64,000 nt of DNA from an uncultured Lachnospiraceae bacterium. GTDB taxonomy: Bacteria; Bacillota; Clostridia; Lachnospirales; Lachnospiraceae. Where the stretch lies: assembly GCA_947173495.1 (NCBI GenBank), contig CAMWFQ010000010.1, positions 62,001 to 126,000 on the forward strand, written 5' to 3'. Below are positions 8,405 to 45,854 of the stretch, one piece after another; the stretch's first letter is position 1, and every line of letters begins with the position of its first letter. The notes beneath the pieces were generated by a model. It had not been told where the DNA came from and made no database searches. It saw nothing but the letters and a program-made list of their open reading frames with translations. Both the position numbers and the translations under genes were made by a program.

Positions 8405-9055
8405 TCATGAACATAATATTGTCAAAAGCGACTTATACCTCTCCGTCTCATTTTTTATATCTTCGGCGGTGACTCCATAATACAGATAGATCTCTTTAAA
8501 CAGCTTCTCCAACTGCTTCCTGGTTTTCTTGTCCCCGCTGAATGAGCCGTCAAGCACCTGCCAGACCGTTTCCACCCCTATCCGCATACGGTCCTTCTCT
8601 GACCATTTAATCTCATATATGTGGAAATCTATGGGAAAAATATCATCTGCAATTTTTGCTGCTATCTTCTCCCGTTCCTGAATCTGCTCACAGAATGCCT
8701 TTAAGGCTTCCACATCCTCCCCTTCTGGCGGCTTCAAATCCACCCATTCACCAAGCAAATCCGGGCGTTGGCGCATGATAAGGGATGCCTTTAAGCTGTT
8801 TCTCTGTTCCAGATAATTATGAGACTGCTGCGAAACCTCCTCAGCGCCATATTCCCGTTTCAGCCATTGCACGACTTCATCCAGCGTATGGGGATTAGCG
8901 GTAATCCGCCTTTTTATCCTGTTCCTTTTTATTCTTTGGAAATAATTCTTTATGCGTGTTGTCAGCTTCACCTTACCGCCTTTTCCGGCGATAAAAATGC
9001 TTGTCGGCCCGTCTGCCCCGCCTATAATAGATACGCTGCCCGCTCCCTTTCCCAT
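8405..9055 (-). CDS. Unknown protein with OadB-like GGADGPTSIF N-terminal motif
   Basis: A 216-residue protein preceded by AGGAGGTG 5 bases from the ATG. Residues 7-24 read SVSIIGGADGPTSIFIAG, which is almost the signature loop of the membrane beta subunit of sodium-pumping decarboxylases (OadB/GcdB). Here it is followed by a basic linker and a soluble, helical, charged domain (KLTTRIKNYFQRIKRNRIKR, then YGAEEVSQ and YYGVTAEDI). There are no membrane helices, so it is not a decarboxylase subunit, although automatic annotation may name it so. The function is unknown. Confidence 0.7.
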   Translation of the reverse strand: MGKGAGSVSIIGGADGPTSIFIAGKGGKVKLTTRIKNYFQRIKRNRIKRRITANPHTLDEVVQWLKREYGAEEVSQQSHNYLEQRNSLKASLIMRQRPDLLGEWVDLKPPEGEDVEALKAFCEQIQEREKIAAKIADDIFPIDFHIYEIKWSEKDRMRIGVETVWQVLDGSFSGDKKTRKQLEKLFKEIYLYYGVTAEDIKNETERYKSLLTILCS

Positions 9056-9187
9056 ATCTTCACCTCCTCTCCCTGCTCTCCGATTCCCCGATCTGCTGAA
9101 AAACTGAAATGCCTGCCCTGCCTTGTCAGGCTGTGGCTTATTGGCATATCAGTCGGCTTCCATTGGATGCTCCCTTGTCACATGTTG

Positions 9188-9919
9188 CTATTTTAAAGGA
9201 ACGCCATTCATTGCTTTATACAGTTCTTCGGTTTTTTGGATGTATTCAGCCTTCGCTGCCCTGTACATTGTGCAGTTATGGAAAATAAGAAATTCCTCGT
9301 CACTTATTGATATTTTCGCTCCATCAATGATATTTTTGTATATGTCATATGCTTTCTTTGTATCTCCCGTCATCTTTTCAATCAGGCTGCTTCCGTTTTC
9401 CGAATGGTAAGCATCATATGCCGTTTTGTATTCTTCGTACTCCTCGGCTGCGGTTTTTGCCGTTCCGTCAGCAATCATAGCTTTTTTCTTTTCTATCAAT
9501 GCATCAATCTTTTCCTTTGCGTAAGCCTCTGCGGCCTTCTCCATATCCTCATCTTTATGAGAAGCCGCCGGGTCTGCCAACTGCTTCAGGCGGGCCTCCA
9601 CTTTAGCCAGATCTGTAATCGTATTGTACGGGTCAACCATTGCCTTCCAGCTAACGGGCAGTTTTTCATTCATAGAGCATACGGCGTTCCTGAATTCATC
9701 ATAATCAGAAACGATATGTATCAATTCCATATCAGTACCTGATTCCATCTTTTCGGCTAAAAACTGCTGTCCTGCAACAGAAATTAATACAGTATCCCTG
9801 TTTGCGCCAGACTTCGTTCCACTTTCAACCCTGCCGTCAGCATGAGGCTCTGGCTCTCTTCCGCCTGCTGTCGCCGTATATGATGCCTGCTTCATATAGT
9901 GATTCATTTTAATATCCAT
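9188..9919 (-). CDS. Lachnospiraceae protein of unknown function
   Basis: A 243-residue soluble, charged, mostly helical protein preceded by AAGGAG 8 bases from the ATG. The N-terminus has a disordered stretch (residues 15-40) leading into DTVLISVAGQQFL, a short motif seen at the start of several uncharacterised Lachnospiraceae proteins. The middle (about 120-165) is rich in Ala, Glu and Lys and probably forms a coiled coil. It runs in the same direction as the GGADGPT gene with a 132-base gap. No function can be assigned. Confidence 0.6.
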   Translation of the reverse strand: MDIKMNHYMKQASYTATAGGREPEPHADGRVESGTKSGANRDTVLISVAGQQFLAEKMESGTDMELIHIVSDYDEFRNAVCSMNEKLPVSWKAMVDPYNTITDLAKVEARLKQLADPAASHKDEDMEKAAEAYAKEKIDALIEKKKAMIADGTAKTAAEEYEEYKTAYDAYHSENGSSLIEKMTGDTKKAYDIYKNIIDGAKISISDEEFLIFHNCTMYRAAKAEYIQKTEELYKAMNGVPLK

Positions 9920-10266
9920 AAAACCTACTCCTTTTTTACTTAATCCAATTGATTATAGCTGTTCCAACCGGTATACGTTTGCGCTTTCCTCCGGCTTTCA
10001 CTTTTTATATCGTAAAAAACAGCATATTATCTAACACCGATAGCTGGAATAGCGGTTAACTTTTATATATTTTCTGCATGATGTAAACTGTAAAAAACGG
10101 CAGTAATAAAAATAGCCGGGAGTTCTCCAAATGCTCTTTCCAATTCATAACGCAGAAATCCATATATACGGAAACTCCCAGCTGGGATCCACTGGCGCTG
10201 CATATAGGATTTCAGATTTTCAGTACTCTGCCGATACGCCTCACAAGCCGCCTGCGGGTTATAAAG
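9920..10266. other. Intergenic region, no gene seen
   Basis: About 350 bases. An imperfect repeat (CCGGGAGTT near 10110, AACTCCCAG near 10174, in inverted order) could pair over a long loop. Nothing coding is convincing on either strand. Confidence 0.3.
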
Positions 10267-38868: not shown

Positions 38869-39747
38869 TTACACTTCCTTCAGAAATTCCTCTGCGGCTC
38901 TGGACAAAAATCCCTTTGTATCCCGCACCACACAGATCTCCCTTTTCGGAATAATCTTGTTAAAACGCAGTTCAAACAGCCTTCCTTCTTCCAGATATTC
39001 TCCGGCGAAATCCTTGACCACACTTCCCACTCCCAGTCCCTGCAGCGCGAACTGGACAATCATATCGCTGGTGGCAAGCTCAAATTCCGGATGTAATTTC
39101 ACTCCGTTCTGCTCAAGGAAGTGATCCATAAAGTTCCTGGTACTGGTATTCCCCTCCAGGGAAATAATCGGAAGCCTCTCCAACTCCTGCAAATCCAGCA
39201 TACGGTTCTTATACTGAATGAATTTCCGCCCGGCCACAAAAATATCCTCAATCTCTCTCACCGGCGTCATCATAAGCTCCTGAGAGGCTATGACCGGCGT
39301 GCTCACCACCCCGAAATCAATTTTCCCCTCCTTCAGAAGCTTAATCGTCTCCGGCGTGGGCGCATTGGTCACCATCACCTTAATGCCCGGAAACCGCTCA
39401 TGATATTTTTGCAGCAGGGGAAGCAGGTAAAATTTAAGCGTCATGTCACTGGCGCCGATCCTCAGCTCGCCCCATTCCAGATTCAGCATGGAAGAGAGTT
39501 TCTTTTCTCCCAGCAGAATCTCTTCATATCCTCTCTTTACGTGCTCATACAACACCTGTCCCTCAAGAGTCAGTCTGATCCCCCGCGTCGCCCGCACAAA
39601 CAGCTTTACGCCAAGAGACGCCTCCAGCTGCTTCAGGCTCTGGCTCACAGCAGGCTGCGAAATCGAAAGCTCTGTGGATGCCGCCGTCAGACTGCCGCTC
39701 CGGGCCGTGTAATAAAACACCTTATAGTATTCCAGATTCTCTGCCAT
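38869..39747 (-). CDS. LysR-family regulator
   Basis: A 292-residue LTTR. HTH at residues 4-62 (YYKVFYYTARSGSLTAASTE, LSISQPAVSQSLKQLE) and a periplasmic-binding-like effector domain (95-290). Reading direction is the same as the upstream uncharacterised gene (45 bases away). No divergent target is present, so its regulon cannot be inferred. Confidence 0.93.
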   Translation of the reverse strand: MAENLEYYKVFYYTARSGSLTAASTELSISQPAVSQSLKQLEASLGVKLFVRATRGIRLTLEGQVLYEHVKRGYEEILLGEKKLSSMLNLEWGELRIGASDMTLKFYLLPLLQKYHERFPGIKVMVTNAPTPETIKLLKEGKIDFGVVSTPVIASQELMMTPVREIEDIFVAGRKFIQYKNRMLDLQELERLPIISLEGNTSTRNFMDHFLEQNGVKLHPEFELATSDMIVQFALQGLGVGSVVKDFAGEYLEEGRLFELRFNKIIPKREICVVRDTKGFLSRAAEEFLKEV

Positions 39748-39792: not shown

Positions 39793-40299
39793 TTAGAGGT
39801 GAAAGCCTCTTATCCACTTCATTCCCGGAGTATTTCTTAAGAAAAAAAGACTCTTCTTCCCAAGAAACGGCTGCATCTCTCTTTTCATAACATCTCTGTC
39901 CCGGATCAACAGCTTTTCCTCTCCGAGAACCAGGATCAGCTTCGACCGTGCATGGAACAGCTTCAGATTTTTTAAGAGCTCCTCCAATGCTTTCTCCTCC
40001 GGCGTTGCAGGATACTTCTCAAAACATCTGCCCGTCTGGACAATGGACAGCGGCACAATCCGGTTCTCCATCCTCTGATCGCTCTCCCAAAAAAGAAGGT
40101 TCATCCTCACATTCCGGAAGATTTCGCTGTGGGAGCGAAGAACGGCCGCCACATCCGCCGCTGTCTCTCTTACATATTCCTCCGGCAGGGCACAGTCCAC
40201 CACAATCGTCATCTCAAGAATTCCACCAGTATAGTTTCCCGGTACATGAAGCACCCTCTCCACTCCGTTTTTCAGGCTCATTTTCCCAAGAAGCTCCAT
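39793..40299 (-). CDS. Uncharacterised protein, formerly next to carB
   Basis: A 168-residue soluble protein, GAGAGGAG before the ATG. It has an N-terminal beta-rich part (VLHVPGNYTGGILEMTIVVD) and a C-terminal part with RSKLILVLGEEKLLIRDRD. I do not recognise the family. Before the defence cassette inserted, its start would have been about 60 bases after the carB stop, so it was probably the third gene of a carAB operon. The tail region contains a GAAAGCCTCTTA repeat at 39783-39810. Confidence 0.6.
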   Translation of the reverse strand: MELLGKMSLKNGVERVLHVPGNYTGGILEMTIVVDCALPEEYVRETAADVAAVLRSHSEIFRNVRMNLLFWESDQRMENRIVPLSIVQTGRCFEKYPATPEEKALEELLKNLKLFHARSKLILVLGEEKLLIRDRDVMKREMQPFLGKKSLFFLRNTPGMKWIRGFHL

Positions 40300-40360: not shown

Positions 40361-40429
40361 CTTAGATCGAAGCCACATCGATCAGCGTAAACTCATCGTT
40401 TGCATTTTCCAGACTGGTCACCAGCGCTC
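40361..40429 (-). repeat. 69-bp direct repeat, copy A (carB 3' end, non-coding copy)
   Basis: Identical over all 69 bases to 42659-42727, offset exactly 2298. It encodes the last 22 codons and stop of carB, but here it lies outside any carB frame. Its left side joins the native-looking downstream sequence; its right side overlaps the stop of the DUF3226 gene. It is an att-like repeat marking one edge of the inserted cassette. A further CTGG is shared 4 bases to the left. Confidence 0.95.
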
Positions 40430-41207
40430 AGGTCAGTTGAAGCATGCTGCATAATTCAGCATTCAGCTTTTGAAGCATATGGCATGCCTTCAGCGTTTCC
40501 TCCGAGACCCACCTATCATCTGCAATGGATACCTGATTTGCCTTTCCTGGTTTCATGGCATTTGCAATACATCCCACCGTTGCTTTTCTGGCGTACTGCT
40601 CCTTTTTCAATCCCTTACAGATATCTGATGCCTTTGCAACATACTCCTCCGCTATTTTCAACAATCCGGGATATGCCGCTTTTGCTGTCTCAAGCAACAG
40701 CTTTTCCAGATCCCCTTCATTCTCATTATCCGGAAACACATAGGAAAAAACCGGTATTTCTTTCATACCTGTATCCAGAACAAGCATTCCCTGCTTTCGT
40801 CCAAGCTTAAAGTCTTCCTTCTCACTGTAAGTGCCAGTCACTTTTCCGATCTTTGATTCTGCTTTTTCCTGATCCGCATCGCAGAGCAACATAATGCCGC
40901 TTAACTGATCCTTCTCGCTGATCTGCATGGCACTCATGATCTGCTGCAGCACCCTCATGATCTCTGTATCGCCGTTTGCACATTTAATCGCCACAGATAC
41001 TTCCTCATTCATCAGAAAACTGGGAATGGGTGTAATCCTCTCCAGCCTGCCCTCTCTGAATGGAAATCTGGCCGGTATTGTACGTTTCCATACCAGAGGC
41101 ACTTTTTCCAGCTCATGGATCTGTTCATTTACTCCGTTTAACCTCAACAGCTTTTCCATCATGGCAATATCATGCGCGCCTTCTACTATTATCAGATAAT
41201 TTCTCAT
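40428..41207 (-). CDS. DUF3226/TOPRIM-like protein, partner of the AAA ATPase
   Basis: A 259-residue protein. The N-terminal IIVEGAHDIAMMEKLL gives the TOPRIM-type conserved Glu, and GIMLLCDADQEKAE the DxD pair. The C-terminal half is helical. TOPRIM nucleases paired with AAA ATPases are found in OLD-family, Gabija and PARIS (AriB) immune systems, where the ATPase senses a phage protein and the nuclease cuts nucleic acid or tRNA. Its ATG overlaps the ATPase stop (ATGA), showing translational coupling. Its TGA lies exactly at the repeat junction. Confidence 0.78.
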   Translation of the reverse strand: MRNYLIIVEGAHDIAMMEKLLRLNGVNEQIHELEKVPLVWKRTIPARFPFREGRLERITPIPSFLMNEEVSVAIKCANGDTEIMRVLQQIMSAMQISEKDQLSGIMLLCDADQEKAESKIGKVTGTYSEKEDFKLGRKQGMLVLDTGMKEIPVFSYVFPDNENEGDLEKLLLETAKAAYPGLLKIAEEYVAKASDICKGLKKEQYARKATVGCIANAMKPGKANQVSIADDRWVSEETLKACHMLQKLNAELCSMLQLT

Positions 41208-42325
41208 AAAATGTCCATTCCCTGATCGGCTTTTAACCAGTGTATCTCTTCTCCCTGAAATCTTTTCACATAAATGCTGCTCTTATAGTGTTCCAGCCGA
41301 TACGCGTTGATGTTTTCAAAATACCCCTGTGCTTCCACCAGAGCATCTATTGCATCTCCGCTGTGTGTTGTAAGAAAAACCTGCACATCATACCGCTCTG
41401 TAGCAGCCGCCATCCATTTGGCGACCTGTATCAGGGCATGCTTATGAATCCCCGTCTCAAATTCATCAATCAGCAGAATTCCGCCGCGCATTTTCACCAC
41501 GGCGCTGGCCAGAGTCAGAATCTTTTTCAAGCCATCTCCGAACGCTGAAACCGGCACCAGGCCGCAGTCTTCCATCTCAATCAGCGTCGCAGGCCTTCCG
41601 TACTGTATCCCCGTCTCCACACCGATGATCCGTTCGTCAAACATCCGCAACAACTCTGTCAGACGGCGTCTTTCTTCTGCAAGCATTCCTTTATATAAGC
41701 TGGCGCTGAGAATTCTGCCGGTATAAATATCAAAGGGTGAAACGTACTGTATTTTATGATTTCTGCTTGAGAACGGCATCCTTGCTCCGGCAGCATGCGT
41801 ATCCCTCCCCTTCGTCTGAGGCATGCGCTGTACTTCATCGAAATAAAATTCTTCCCCATGAGTTTCCCCGCACCGGCAGGTATATTCTCCATCCATCATT
41901 CGAATGGTTCCGTCCGCGTCACAGCAGCTTTCATATCGTCTCCGTTCCTCTGGAGAACAGTCTTCTTCCAGAATCCACCCTCTTTCGATTTTTCCCCTTA
42001 TCCCGACCCTGCACTCACCATATCTGTCGCTCTCCGCCTGGATGTAAATCTCTTTTTCCTTCTCCTGCATTGGAAAAGAATACAGCAGCATATCAAAGGG
42101 AAGCAGTCTGTCCTTCATAATGGACGCTCCCAGCTGTGCCTCTCTTCTTCTTGCAATGTTAATGGCATTCGCCAGCACATCACCGCTGTCCAGCAGCTGG
42201 ATTGCTTCCAGAACAGAGGTTTTTCCGGAATTGTTTTCTCCGATGATAATATTGATCCTTCCCAGCCCCGACATGGTAAGGTTCCTCAATCCCCTGAAAG
42301 ATTCAATTCTAAGTTCTCTTAACAT
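41204..42325 (-). CDS. OLD/AriA-like AAA ATPase (AAA_15/AAA_21)
   Basis: A 373-residue SMC/ABC-type ATPase. Start MLRELRIESFRGLRNL leads to Walker A IIGENNSGKTSVL (near 28-40). A Cys-rich insert occurs in the middle (CSPEERRRYESCCDADG, YTCRCGETHG). The signature-like FGDGLKKILTLASA, Walker B GGILLIDEFETGIHK and H-loop FLTTHSGDAIDAL follow. This is the ATP-binding half of two-gene OLD/PARIS-like systems. A strong promoter lies 42 bases upstream and GGGTGA precedes the ATG. Confidence 0.85.
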   Translation of the reverse strand: MLRELRIESFRGLRNLTMSGLGRINIIIGENNSGKTSVLEAIQLLDSGDVLANAINIARRREAQLGASIMKDRLLPFDMLLYSFPMQEKEKEIYIQAESDRYGECRVGIRGKIERGWILEEDCSPEERRRYESCCDADGTIRMMDGEYTCRCGETHGEEFYFDEVQRMPQTKGRDTHAAGARMPFSSRNHKIQYVSPFDIYTGRILSASLYKGMLAEERRRLTELLRMFDERIIGVETGIQYGRPATLIEMEDCGLVPVSAFGDGLKKILTLASAVVKMRGGILLIDEFETGIHKHALIQVAKWMAAATERYDVQVFLTTHSGDAIDALVEAQGYFENINAYRLEHYKSSIYVKRFQGEEIHWLKADQGMDIL

Positions 42326-42366
42326 ACTTTCACCCGTTCTGAATACCCTTTCTTTCTATGGTACAT

Positions 42367-42396
42367 ACTATAAACTAAAGCAGTATTCATTGTCAA
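42367..42396 (-). promoter_or_regulatory. Promoter of the AAA-DUF3226 cassette
   Basis: A consensus TTGACA (42391-42396), 18-base spacer and TATAGT (42367-42372) on the minus strand, about 42 bases before the ATPase ATG. The cassette therefore has its own promoter, independent of carAB. Confidence 0.7.
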
Positions 42397-42407
42397 AAGG
42401 AGCTTTG

Positions 42408-42488
42408 ATGGCAGACGCAAATATGAGCTTTACATTGCTCCGCCGCGTAATCGACCGGAAAGGAGCCTTTTATGTGCCTTCACGCTGA
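42408..42488 (+). CDS. Possible 26-residue peptide in the cassette
   Basis: AAAAGGAG lies 5 bases before the ATG. The peptide starts MADANMSFTLLRRVIDRKG and overlaps the next small ORF by 17 bases. It is divergent from the ATPase gene. No family is recognised. It could be a regulator or a chance ORF. Confidence 0.35.
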   Translation: MADANMSFTLLRRVIDRKGAFYVPSR

Positions 42489-42663
42489 AATCATCCTCTC
42501 TCCCACTCCCGAAAATTCCTGGGGAATAGCAGATACCTGTGATGTCAGGTGCGCACAATGTGGTATACCACTGCTTTCCCGGGCCAGTCAGAAGGAAATC
42601 TGCGATCTGATCGCCCGCTCCGCCTGTCGTATCGTTTCCGGAGAAAAATATCTGGCTCCTTAG
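42472..42663 (+). CDS. Possible 63-residue CxxC protein in the cassette
   Basis: AAAGGAG lies 6 bases before the ATG at 42472. The product contains VRCAQCGIPLLSRASQKEIC, a CxxC plus later Cys suggesting a zinc ribbon. Its stop falls inside copy B of the repeat, so the ORF lies wholly on the inserted segment. Unknown function; a regulator or accessory factor is possible. Confidence 0.45.
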   Translation: MCLHAEIILSPTPENSWGIADTCDVRCAQCGIPLLSRASQKEICDLIARSACRIVSGEKYLAP

Positions 42664-42727
42664 ATCGAAGCCACATCGATCAGCGTAAACTCATCGTTTG
42701 CATTTTCCAGACTGGTCACCAGCGCTC
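42659..42727 (-). repeat. 69-bp direct repeat, copy B (functional carB 3' end)
   Basis: The coding copy: it supplies the last codons (VTSLENANDEFTLIDVASI) and TAA of the intact carB. It is identical to copy A at 40361-40429. Confidence 0.95.
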
Positions 42728-45700
42728 TCGCCGTATCCATCGCTGTGATACAGTTCACACCGGTCTCGATGGCCGTTCTCCTGATCAGGAAGCCGTCCCT
42801 GGATTTATCCCGTCCCTGGGTCGGCGTGTCGATCACCAGATCAATCCTGTGTCCCAGGATCAGATCCATGACGGTGGGCGACTCCTGCGAGATCTTATTG
42901 ACCTTACGCGCTTTCACGCCCGCTTCTCTCAGGGCCGCCGCCGTACTTCTGGTGGCGTAAATGGTATAGCCCAGCTTCTCAAATCTGCGGCCAATCTCCA
43001 CTGCCTCGCCCTTATCTGCATCTTTCACTGTGATGATCATCTGCTTATGTCTGGGCAGATCCACTCCTGCTCCTAAAAAGGCTTTGTAGAGCGCCTCATT
43101 AAAGGTCCTGGCAATACCCAGACACTCTCCCGTTGACTTCATCTCAGGCCCCAGGCTGATCTCCGCCCCCCGTATCTTCTCAAAAGAAAATACCGGCATT
43201 TTGATGGCGAAATAGTCCGCTTCCGGCTGAAGCCCCGGCTCATATCCCAGCTCCCGGATCGTCTTTCCAATGATCACCTCCGTGGCAAGATCCACAATGG
43301 GAATACCTGTCACCTTACTGATATAGGGTACGGTACGGGAAGAACGGGGATTTACTTCTATTACATATACCTCCTCGCCTATGGCGATAAACTGAATATT
43401 GATCAGCCCCTTTACATGAAGCGCCTTAGCCAGTCTTCTGGTATATTCCGCAATTTTCTCCTTTACGGTATCAGAAATCGTAGGAGCCGGATAAACAGAA
43501 ATACTGTCTCCCGAGTGAACGCCTGTCCTTTCTATGTGCTCCATAATGCCCGGTATCAGAATATCCTGTCCGTCACAGACTGCATCCACTTCAATCTCCT
43601 TACCCTGAAGGTACTTGTCAACCAGAATCGGGTGATCCTGTGCGATCCGGTTAATGATATTCATAAATTCTTCGATTTCTTCATCGGAAATGGCGATCTG
43701 CATTCCCTGCCCGCCCAGTACATAGGAAGGCCGTACCAACACCGGATACCCCAGTCTGTTGGCAACTTCCTTTGCCTCCTGCGCCGTATAGACGGTACCG
43801 CCTGCTGCCCTGGGGATCTGCGTCTGCTCCAGAATTCGGTCAAACAGCTCCCGATCCTCGGCGGCATCCACATCCTCCGCCTTTGTCCCAAGAATGGGGA
43901 CTCCCATCTTCATCAGGCTCTCCGTGAGCTTGATGGCTGTCTGGCCGCCAAACTGCACTACCGCTCCGTCCGGCTTTTCCAGATTGACGATGCTCTCCAC
44001 ATCCTCCGATGTCAGGGGTTCAAAATACAGCTTATCCGCAATATCAAAGTCCGTACTGACTGTTTCCGGATTATTGTTTACGATAATGGTCTCATAGCCT
44101 GCCCTGGAAAAGGCCCAGGTGGCATGTACGGAGCAGTAGTCAAACTCGATCCCCTGTCCGATTCTGATGGGCCCTGACCCCAGCACCAACACCTTTTTCG
44201 CCGGTGTCGTGACAGATGCTTCATTTTCACTTCCGTATACGGAATAATAGTAGGGAGTCGCCGCCTCAAACTCTGCCGCACAGGTATCTACCATTTTATA
44301 GGCCGCCACAATACCGTTCTCATAGCGAAGCTTTTTGATCTCTTCTTCCGTCATGCCGGTCAGTCTGGCAATCACATTGTCCGGAAATTCGATACGCTTT
44401 GCCTCCTTTAACAGCTCAACAGTGAGAGGTCCTTTTACAAGCGCCTGCTCCATTTCCACAAGTATCGCGATCTTATCGATAAACCAGTGGTCGATCATGG
44501 TAATCTCATGAATGGTGTCATAATCCATTCCCTTGCGCAGCGCTTCCGCAATCACATAAATCCTCTGATCATCCACTTTCTTAAGCCGCATCTTCAGCTC
44601 TTCCGAAGACAGGGCGCTGAAATCATAACTCAACAGACAGTCCACATGCTGTTCCAGAGAACGAATGGCCTTCATGAGCGCTCCCTCAAAGTTATCGCAG
44701 ATACTCATCACCTCGCCGGTGGCTTTCATCTGAGTCGTCAGTGTTCTCTTGGCTGTGATAAACTTATCAAAGGGGAGTCTGGGAAGCTTTACCACACAAT
44801 AATCAAGGGTGGGTTCAAAGCTGGCATAGGTCTTTCCGGTAATCGCATTTCTGATCTCATCCAGAGTGTACCCCAGCGCGATCTTGGCCGCCACCTTGGC
44901 TATGGGGTAGCCGGTAGCCTTACTGGCCAGCGCTGAAGAACGGCTTACACGGGGATTGACCTCGATTACACAGTATTCAAAGCTGGTGGGGTGAAGCGCA
45001 AACTGTACATTACACCCGCCGGTAATTTCCAGCTCATTGATGATATTCAGGGCGGCGCTTCTGAGCATCTGGTATTCCTTATCCCCAAGCGTCTGTGAAG
45101 GCGCCACCACGATGCTGTCTCCCGTGTGGACGCCGACCGGATCGATATTCTCCATATTGCAGACGGTAATGCAGTTTCCTGCGCTGTCCCGCATCACCTC
45201 GTATTCGATCTCCTTCCATCCCGCAATACAGCGCTCCACCAGAACCTGCCCCACTCTGGAAAGACGCAGGCCGTTTTCCAGAATGCTTTCAAGCTCCGCC
45301 TGATTATGAGCGATTCCTCCGCCGGATCCTCCCAGGGTGTAGGCCGGCCGCAGAACCACCGGATAGCCGATGGTGCCGGCGAAGGCCACGCCTTCCTCCA
45401 CGCTCTCCACCACTGTAGATGCAGCACAGGGCTCCCCGATCTTTTCCATTGTATCCTTGAACGCCTGACGGTCTTCCGCCTTCCTGATGGTCATGGCGCT
45501 GGTTCCCAGAAGCCTGACATTATGAGACGCCAGAAATCCCGACTCCTCCAGTTCCATCCCAAGATTCAGTCCGGCCTGTCCTCCTAATGTGGGCAGGATA
45601 CTGTCCGGCTTTTCCTTTTCAATGATCTGCTCCAGAACCCTTGCCGTTAAGGGCTCGATATATACCTTGTCTGCAATATTTTTATCCGTCATGATCGTTG

Positions 45701-45854
45701 CCGGATTGGAGTTGACCAGAATAACCTCGACTCCCTCCTCCTTCAGAGAACGGCAGGCCTGGGTTCCCGCATAATCAAATTCCGCCGCCTGTCCGATCAC
45801 AATAGGACCGGAGCCGATCACCATCACACGTTTTACATTAGGATTTTTAGGCAT
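42660..45854 (-). CDS. carB: Carbamoyl-phosphate synthase large subunit
   Basis: A 1064-residue protein of full length. Two homologous ATP-grasp halves are visible: N-half KRVMVIGSGPIVIGQAAEFD and LGGSGGGIA, C-half KVLVLGSGPIRIGQGIEFD and LGGQGMQIAI. The C-terminal MGS-type allosteric domain ends ARALVTSLENANDEFTLIDV. With CarA it makes carbamoyl phosphate from glutamine, bicarbonate and ATP for pyrimidines and arginine. It overlaps carA by 8 bases. Its last 22 codons lie in the direct repeat. Confidence 0.98.
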   Translation of the reverse strand: MPKNPNVKRVMVIGSGPIVIGQAAEFDYAGTQACRSLKEEGVEVILVNSNPATIMTDKNIADKVYIEPLTARVLEQIIEKEKPDSILPTLGGQAGLNLGMELEESGFLASHNVRLLGTSAMTIRKAEDRQAFKDTMEKIGEPCAASTVVESVEEGVAFAGTIGYPVVLRPAYTLGGSGGGIAHNQAELESILENGLRLSRVGQVLVERCIAGWKEIEYEVMRDSAGNCITVCNMENIDPVGVHTGDSIVVAPSQTLGDKEYQMLRSAALNIINELEITGGCNVQFALHPTSFEYCVIEVNPRVSRSSALASKATGYPIAKVAAKIALGYTLDEIRNAITGKTYASFEPTLDYCVVKLPRLPFDKFITAKRTLTTQMKATGEVMSICDNFEGALMKAIRSLEQHVDCLLSYDFSALSSEELKMRLKKVDDQRIYVIAEALRKGMDYDTIHEITMIDHWFIDKIAILVEMEQALVKGPLTVELLKEAKRIEFPDNVIARLTGMTEEEIKKLRYENGIVAAYKMVDTCAAEFEAATPYYYSVYGSENEASVTTPAKKVLVLGSGPIRIGQGIEFDYCSVHATWAFSRAGYETIIVNNNPETVSTDFDIADKLYFEPLTSEDVESIVNLEKPDGAVVQFGGQTAIKLTESLMKMGVPILGTKAEDVDAAEDRELFDRILEQTQIPRAAGGTVYTAQEAKEVANRLGYPVLVRPSYVLGGQGMQIAISDEEIEEFMNIINRIAQDHPILVDKYLQGKEIEVDAVCDGQDILIPGIMEHIERTGVHSGDSISVYPAPTISDTVKEKIAEYTRRLAKALHVKGLINIQFIAIGEEVYVIEVNPRSSRTVPYISKVTGIPIVDLATEVIIGKTIRELGYEPGLQPEADYFAIKMPVFSFEKIRGAEISLGPEMKSTGECLGIARTFNEALYKAFLGAGVDLPRHKQMIITVKDADKGEAVEIGRRFEKLGYTIYATRSTAAALREAGVKARKVNKISQESPTVMDLILGHRIDLVIDTPTQGRDKSRDGFLIRRTAIETGVNCITAMDTARALVTSLENANDEFTLIDVASI

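Follow-up and report, generated by a model that had tools for sequence, protein, structure and literature searches.

Introduction

PDC-M38 is a candidate anti-phage system listed in PADLOC-DB 2.0, and the gene pair described here appears, from its profile matches, to be a member, with an anti-phage role of the same candidate status. The pair lies directly behind carB, an essential gene, in a stretch of 64,000 nucleotides, hereafter the window, from an uncultured Lachnospiraceae bacterium (assembly GCA_947173495.1, contig CAMWFQ010000010.1, positions 62,001 to 126,000 of the forward strand), where it is enclosed by two copies of the carB 3′ end. The reading that we favor, at a probability of roughly 0.57, is that insertion with long target duplication placed a three-gene PDC-M38 candidate-defense unit, acquired horizontally, at the site behind carB.

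The best PADLOC matches of the window ATPase and its partner are PDC-M38A and PDC-M38B, respectively, and their genes are adjacent and overlap by 4 bp in the list of open reading frames (ORFs). The locus differs from the entry in that the window and its two closest relatives, one in a Blautia (L075) and one in an Agathobacter (L076) metagenome-assembled genome (MAG), have a third, divergently oriented small gene. The pair resembles PARIS in placing an OLD-type ATPase and a TOPRIM nuclease on two genes, and its ATPase matches AriA models (E = 9.8e-24); its partner, however, is a DUF3226 protein, and the ATPase fits PDC-M38A (3.3e-74) far better than AriA. One report on PARIS includes the observation that AriB activity is abolished in the TOPRIM mutant E26A (PMC12409363). 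AriB is absent from the 10 PADLOC matches of the window partner, a separate AriB model in the library having gone unchecked. The OLD nucleases P2 Old and GajA differ from the window, which has two separate genes, and PF20469 is not among the matches of either protein. AbiL of Lactococcus, which consists of AbiLi and its partner AbiLii, is approached by the window ATPase (AbiLi, 2e-42 over residues 1–363) but not by the window partner, whose PADLOC matches at E ≤ 1 are all to PDC-M38B. An earlier interpretation of this DNA from its letters alone (the sequence-only reading) had seen an OLD/PARIS-like ATPase–nuclease pair with overlapping genes, and was right in this; its suggestion of a distinct DUF3226 system concerns a pair that has a candidate entry already, and the apparent novelty is the third gene.

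Insertion with long target duplication was reportedly described for restriction-modification genes by Nobusato et al. in 2000 and by Furuta et al. in 2010, and we know of no mechanism by which the target is copied in such insertions. Three reports that cite this work (PMC3031569, PMC1643837, PMC4978471) describe restriction-modification genes compared between strains or close genomes, above all in Helicobacter; according to one of them, genome comparison suggested that no type of restriction-modification system is barred from inserting with target duplications that are long and variable (PMC3031569). The present cases share with them a long direct repeat on either side of the insert, of which relatives lacking the insert have one copy, a variable repeat length, and defense-type cargo. 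The window cargo differs in being an ATPase–TOPRIM pair, and the PDC-M38 cases come from Bacillota and Cyanobacteria and were compared across species. The candidate system and the insertion type are both known. As far as our literature searches go, two things appear to be new, the conservation of a third gene and the association between PDC-M38 and duplicated gene ends; no paper was found under the terms DUF3226 and PDC-M38 in the literature searched. Long target duplication would then extend to a second, unrelated defense family, in two phyla.

Duplication of the carB end and the empty site

The direct repeat is 69 bp long and 100% identical, its copies lying 2298 bp apart from start to start (Table 1) with an insert of 2229 bp between them. 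Each copy comprises the carB stop codon, 65 coding bases (21 codons and two bases) and one base beyond the stop; the sequence-only reading was correct in identity and spacing and slightly off in its count of 22 codons. It had also described an insertion that leaves carB intact and has no integrase on board, and indeed no PF00589 or PF00239 recombinase match falls within the insert, which holds three genes. The TGA of the TOPRIM gene and the TAG of the small gene are both completed by the repeats, so that the cassette fills the gap between them. Its composition is host-like (G+C content 47.0%, against 46.8% for the window).

The repeat occurs just twice in its own genome (G000). Among direct repeats of at least 30 bp within 12 kb, the window contains, besides the carB pair, one 44-nt pair at 84% identity, in which an ABC-ATPase motif can be made out by eye. 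Across 528 kb, comprising 31 carB-downstream stretches of the genus and the window, five repeat pairs with a 1.5–5 kb gap were found, the carB pair included. The nearest of 30 congener carB tails shares 60 of 68 bases with the window repeat, whereas the two window copies are identical to each other, which is what copying in place, or an origin within the species, would predict. Single-stranded DNA folding of the repeat gave z values of −1.25 and −1.94 and is not used as evidence. At 42653–42673 on the minus strand, a terminator-like hairpin followed by a T-rich stretch is formed jointly by the carB end and the cassette end; it is not reported at the distal copy, and terminator-like sites number 3 against 1.8 expected.

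The sequence-only reading had proposed a search of relatives for empty sites downstream of carB, and these were found. With one genome compared per species, the 3′ part of carB was matched in 31 of 37 genus genomes including its own, and 31 downstream stretches were read from the other 30, three of them (the first piece of G033, G029 and G002) extending under 1.4 kb. In four congeners (G021, G023, G025 and G027) a 168-amino-acid (aa) ORF, p168, begins after the carB stop at distances of 115, 8, 19 and 32 bp, respectively, and is followed by a LysR gene; in the window it is the distal copy that stands 61 bp ahead of the p168 start codon. Because the native next gene comes after it, the distal copy is probably the original chromosomal carB end. 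A second carB end occurs in none of the 31 congener stretches, so that the window stands alone among 32, the three short stretches counted. An insertion at this site is supported by the empty site in the four congeners.

The further suggestion of a defense hot spot at carB is not supported. First genes behind carB in some congener stretches look ordinary by eye from their translations (sugar transporter-like, DegV-like and membrane-transporter-like), and no other defense cassette was recognized in the 31 stretches in an inspection by eye that did not take in every gene. In G033, contigs C120 (48481–49110) and C89 (1–95) have in common the carB end together with the next 30 bp, so that the assembly branches at this place, possibly through strain variation.

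Gene-end duplications around other PDC-M38 pairs

Three other PDC-M38 pairs are enclosed by duplicated gene ends. In Tissierella pigra (L111) the repeat measures 240 bp, made up of the end of a 515-aa HD-domain gene and adjoining downstream DNA, and stands on both sides of the pair at 96% identity; in an Oscillospiraceae MAG (L106) a 378-aa SLH gene has its end duplicated over 43 bp (95%); and in a Microcoleus MAG (L139) it is 275 bp including the end of a 139-aa ORF (95%). Together with carB, four different genes are involved, with duplication lengths of 43, 69, 240 and 275 bp.

Direct repeats of at least 25 bp in the 2-kb flanks were found at 9 of 68 ATPase loci and in 0 of 55 left-shifted blocks (Fisher P = 0.004), a clear enrichment; a partner length of 780 bp was assumed throughout, even at ATPase loci where no TOPRIM gene had been detected, and all control blocks lie leftward, since blocks on the right did not fit (0 usable). 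Repeats with a 1.5–5 kb gap were present at 10 of 70 pair loci and enclosed the pair in eight of these; counted as repeat pairs, 18 of 29 were enclosing against 4.04 expected, with 10 of the 18 contributed by one locus (L116). When a looser test was restricted to identities of at least 80%, a threshold picked after the data had been seen, the counts were 9 of 62 versus 0 of 137 (Fisher P = 1.8e-5). Control loci of OLD nucleases gave one repeat pair in 40 loci, an enclosing one; this control was drawn from a single class, whereas the PDC-M38 set spans many phyla, and full 2-kb flanks on either side are available for 34 of the 40 control loci.

Several further arrangements were noted. In the same Microcoleus MAG as L139, L087 (4061–5014) has a gene that looks by eye like aspS, whose final 122 bp recur at 91% identity beyond a YoeB-type toxin gene (PF06769, 4.1e-37) that is preceded by a small ORF; the end of the toxin ORF is the start of the repeat, and the PDC-M38 pair adjoins this gene-end duplication around a toxin cassette. 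In G019, a congener of the window's host, a TraX-like gene (PF05857, 8.5e-14) has its 3′ end duplicated over 88 bp at 93% identity (L053, 16848–19385), and the copies enclose a Phd/YefM-like antitoxin (PF02604, 6.1e-6, below the cut-off) and a 382-aa ORF without a Pfam match. Directly behind the distal repeat of the L111 cassette lies a second AAA_21 ATPase gene (8736–10028; 3.5e-16), in surroundings that look by eye like a flagellar gene cluster.

Origin of the insertion

Under the favored reading, the three-gene unit, consisting of an AAA ATPase, a DUF3226 TOPRIM nuclease and a divergent, zinc-ribbon-like protein, would have arrived by horizontal transfer. Its insertion just behind carB would have copied the last 69 bases, one copy closing carB and the other coming to lie beyond the cassette, with no recombinase of the cassette's own being used. 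Duplications of variable gene and length fit insertion with long, variable target duplication better than site-specific integration at carB; the different genes and lengths, the absence of a recombinase from the insert and the existence of relatives free of repeats argue against one site-specific recombinase acting at this gene. Since the duplication leaves the gene whole, a gene end would be a safe place for insertion, and selection may explain why it is 3′ ends that are seen. The window case, in which the copies are 100% identical and the unit spans only 2229 bp, would be a clean substrate for tests of the mechanism.

Several observations weigh against this reading. There is no sister strain among the genomes, so that the empty site is known across species only. 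Five of the eight enclosing loci (L087, L092, L112, L116 and L126) look dispersed or multi-copy by eye, leaving only three clear gene-end duplications, and one of the nine repeat-bearing ATPase loci (L089) has no TOPRIM partner and has its repeat inside the ATPase gene. Looser settings gave a weaker result (11 of 62 versus 7 of 137, Fisher P = 0.0067). Compared with OLD nuclease loci, the excess was not significant, either for enclosing repeats (8 of 70 versus 1 of 40, Fisher P = 0.15) or for clear gene-end duplications (3 of 70 versus 0 of 40, Fisher P = 0.55), and the link to duplication may therefore hold for defense genes in general. No exact repeat of at least 9 bp lies near the cassette ends of L075 and L076, so duplication is not obligatory. 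Finally, an attachment site would have the same appearance, a 69-bp repeat with its end at a stop codon.

This last point leads to site-specific integration at the carB 3′ end, as the sequence-only reading had proposed. The alternative survives best of those considered, and we hold it to be possible while clearly less likely than insertion with target duplication. The cassette would be a cis-mobilizable remnant, moved by a recombinase that either works in trans or has meanwhile disappeared, and the repeats would be its left and right attachment sites, attL and attR. At known gene-end attachment sites the repeat likewise ends at the stop and restores the gene, as it does at carB, and the genome itself has 20 PF00589 and 15 PF00239 matches that could supply a recombinase in trans; the nearest PF00589 match on the contig, however, is 61 kb away, and PF00239 has none on the contig. 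Among the 32 carB-downstream stretches, three of them under 1.4 kb, a second carB end is seen in the window alone, a simple integrase motif, run without a positive control, had no match in 482 kb of carB-downstream stretches, and viral contigs yielded 0 matches each to an exact 33-mer and a self-designed degenerate form of the carB tail. Homologous cassettes, moreover, sit at other genes with repeats of other lengths, so that a different recombinase would be needed each time. The sequence-only reading had named as contrary evidence the case that all relatives have these genes but lack the second repeat; L075 and L076 answer to this in part, lying as they do at other sites.

Homologous transfer from a conspecific donor through the carB and p168 flanks, or the single crossover of a circle carrying a carB end, is an improbable origin: copies that are 100% identical are compatible with a donor of the same species, but such transfer moves an existing insertion and leaves the first duplication of the carB end unexplained. 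Still less probable is that the PDC-M38 pair is itself the engine of mobility, its nuclease making widely spaced nicks at gene ends and the cassette being sealed in as the 3′ end is copied; if this were true, a defense system would also be an element that moves itself and leaves target duplications of long and variable extent. An assembly artefact is the least credible explanation, for although the draft assembly comprises 52 contigs, has an estimated contamination of 4.35% and could contain a misjoin at the 69-bp repeat, and a contig of congener G033 stops 30 bp behind carB, the 170-kb contig runs on past the distal copy with p168 and the LysR gene, as behind carB in four congeners, each end of the cassette falls at the end of a gene, and other species have comparable structures.

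Cassette genes and their distribution

The features of the locus are collected in Table 1. In Pfam the ATPase matches AAA_21 (2.1e-21), with both of its motifs visible in the alignment, and the partner matches DUF3226, its best PADLOC match being PDC-M38B at 6.1e-14. The partner's predicted structure has an OLD-type TOPRIM fold, and both fold and motif are well predicted; the structural comparison of the model is based on VIA-align rows, and the partner alignment (A3) comprises the window and 56 of 70 partners, 11 having been dropped for length and 3 more left out. By analogy, the pair probably works in a PARIS/OLD-like manner, in which the ATPase would sense infection and hold or activate the TOPRIM nuclease, and the activated nuclease would cut nucleic acid and stop the infected cell. 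The near-consensus promoter noted in the sequence-only reading is present, though four such sites were found in the region where 2.8 would be expected by chance. Three Rfam matches up to E 1 all fall under their gathering scores.

Table 1. Positions in the window of the cassette, its flanking repeats and the adjoining genes
Feature	Position	Strand	Basis or remark
carB, intact, insertion target gene	42660..45854	-	ORF; 3′ part matched in genus genomes
Proximal copy: intact carB 3′ end plus one base	42659..42727	-	ORF list, repeat search, exact comparison
Distal copy of carB 3′ end, 69 bp	40361..40429	-	Repeat search, exact comparison; p168 directly after carB in four congeners
ATPase, AAA_21/OLD-type, PDC-M38A	41204..42325	-	PADLOC, Pfam, GENNSGKT and LLIDE motifs
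TOPRIM protein, DUF3226 (PF11536), PDC-M38B	40428..41207	-	TGA stop takes two bases from distal repeat
Divergent small protein, 63 aa, third cassette gene	42472..42663	+	TAG stop inside proximal repeat, overlaps carB stop
Sigma-70-like promoter, ATPase–TOPRIM operon	42367..42396	-	TTGACA-18-TATAGT, 11/12 consensus; consensus match only
168-aa ORF (p168), directly after carB at empty site of four congeners	39793..40299	-	Congener gene order
LysR-family regulator, next in conserved flank	38869..39747	-	Pfam scan, congener gene order

Two small ORFs had been noted in the insert. One, of 122 aa (42120–42488, plus strand), is partly antisense to the ATPase gene, and its only Pfam match is at chance level (E = 0.23). 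The other, of 63 aa, is conserved in relatives, with homologs beside the pair in L075 (43% identity) and L076 (39%). Because these two carry the small gene with the pair at unrelated sites, the unit has three genes, and tests of PDC-M38 as a two-gene system may miss part of it in this lineage. C2, H4, C27 and C30 are invariant in all three sequences, a C-x-H ... C-x2-C pattern that, read by eye, suggests a zinc-ribbon-like protein. Its probable role is either regulation of the divergent promoter region or a contribution to sensing. A model built from the three sequences reached a mean predicted local distance difference test score (pLDDT) of 81.9 and matched no solved fold significantly (best E = 0.84). 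PF23137 was considered for the small protein and set aside, its match being below the cut-off (E = 0.001) and limited to the L075 copy. A search of 319 family genomes returned, besides the gene itself, a single match (G853, 9.3e-4), taken as chance because it has no ATPase beside it and runs antisense within a sugar-binding-protein-like ORF; among the other loci searched for it, the only further match at E ≤ 1 (L110, 0.12) was likewise taken as chance.

The pair is rare among relatives of its host. The TOPRIM gene is present in one of 37 genus genomes, its own, and the ATPase in two of 392 genomes of the order, its own and one at 32%. Among the best 80 of 337 ATPase relatives in the GTDB species-genome scan, L075 (62% identity) and L076 (55%) are closest, and none of the other 78 exceeds 35%. 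Both have all three cassette genes in the layout of the window. The L075 cassette is flanked by a MarR gene and a DUF885 gene in convergent orientation, whose ends it overlaps by 35 and 17 bp, and in L076 the site is another one; among 30 DUF885 loci fetched, eight have a MarR relative adjoining with no cassette between and the other 22 have no MarR match. Phage records contain no ATPase match at 1e-5. Plasmids gave 145 matching records, one of which covers at least 80% of the query (93%, at 26% identity), the other rows shown covering 33%. Three viral contigs (L169, L171 and L172, 55–61%) were rejected as close relatives, the match being a short N-terminal piece in ORFs of 143 aa. A different arrangement is seen in L072 (280–3376), where the PDC-M38A ATPase domain forms the C-terminal part of a 750-aa ORF followed by a 298-aa ORF that looks TOPRIM-like by eye; ATPase ORFs of comparable length, together with a partner match, are seen in viral loci, L163 and L166 among them.

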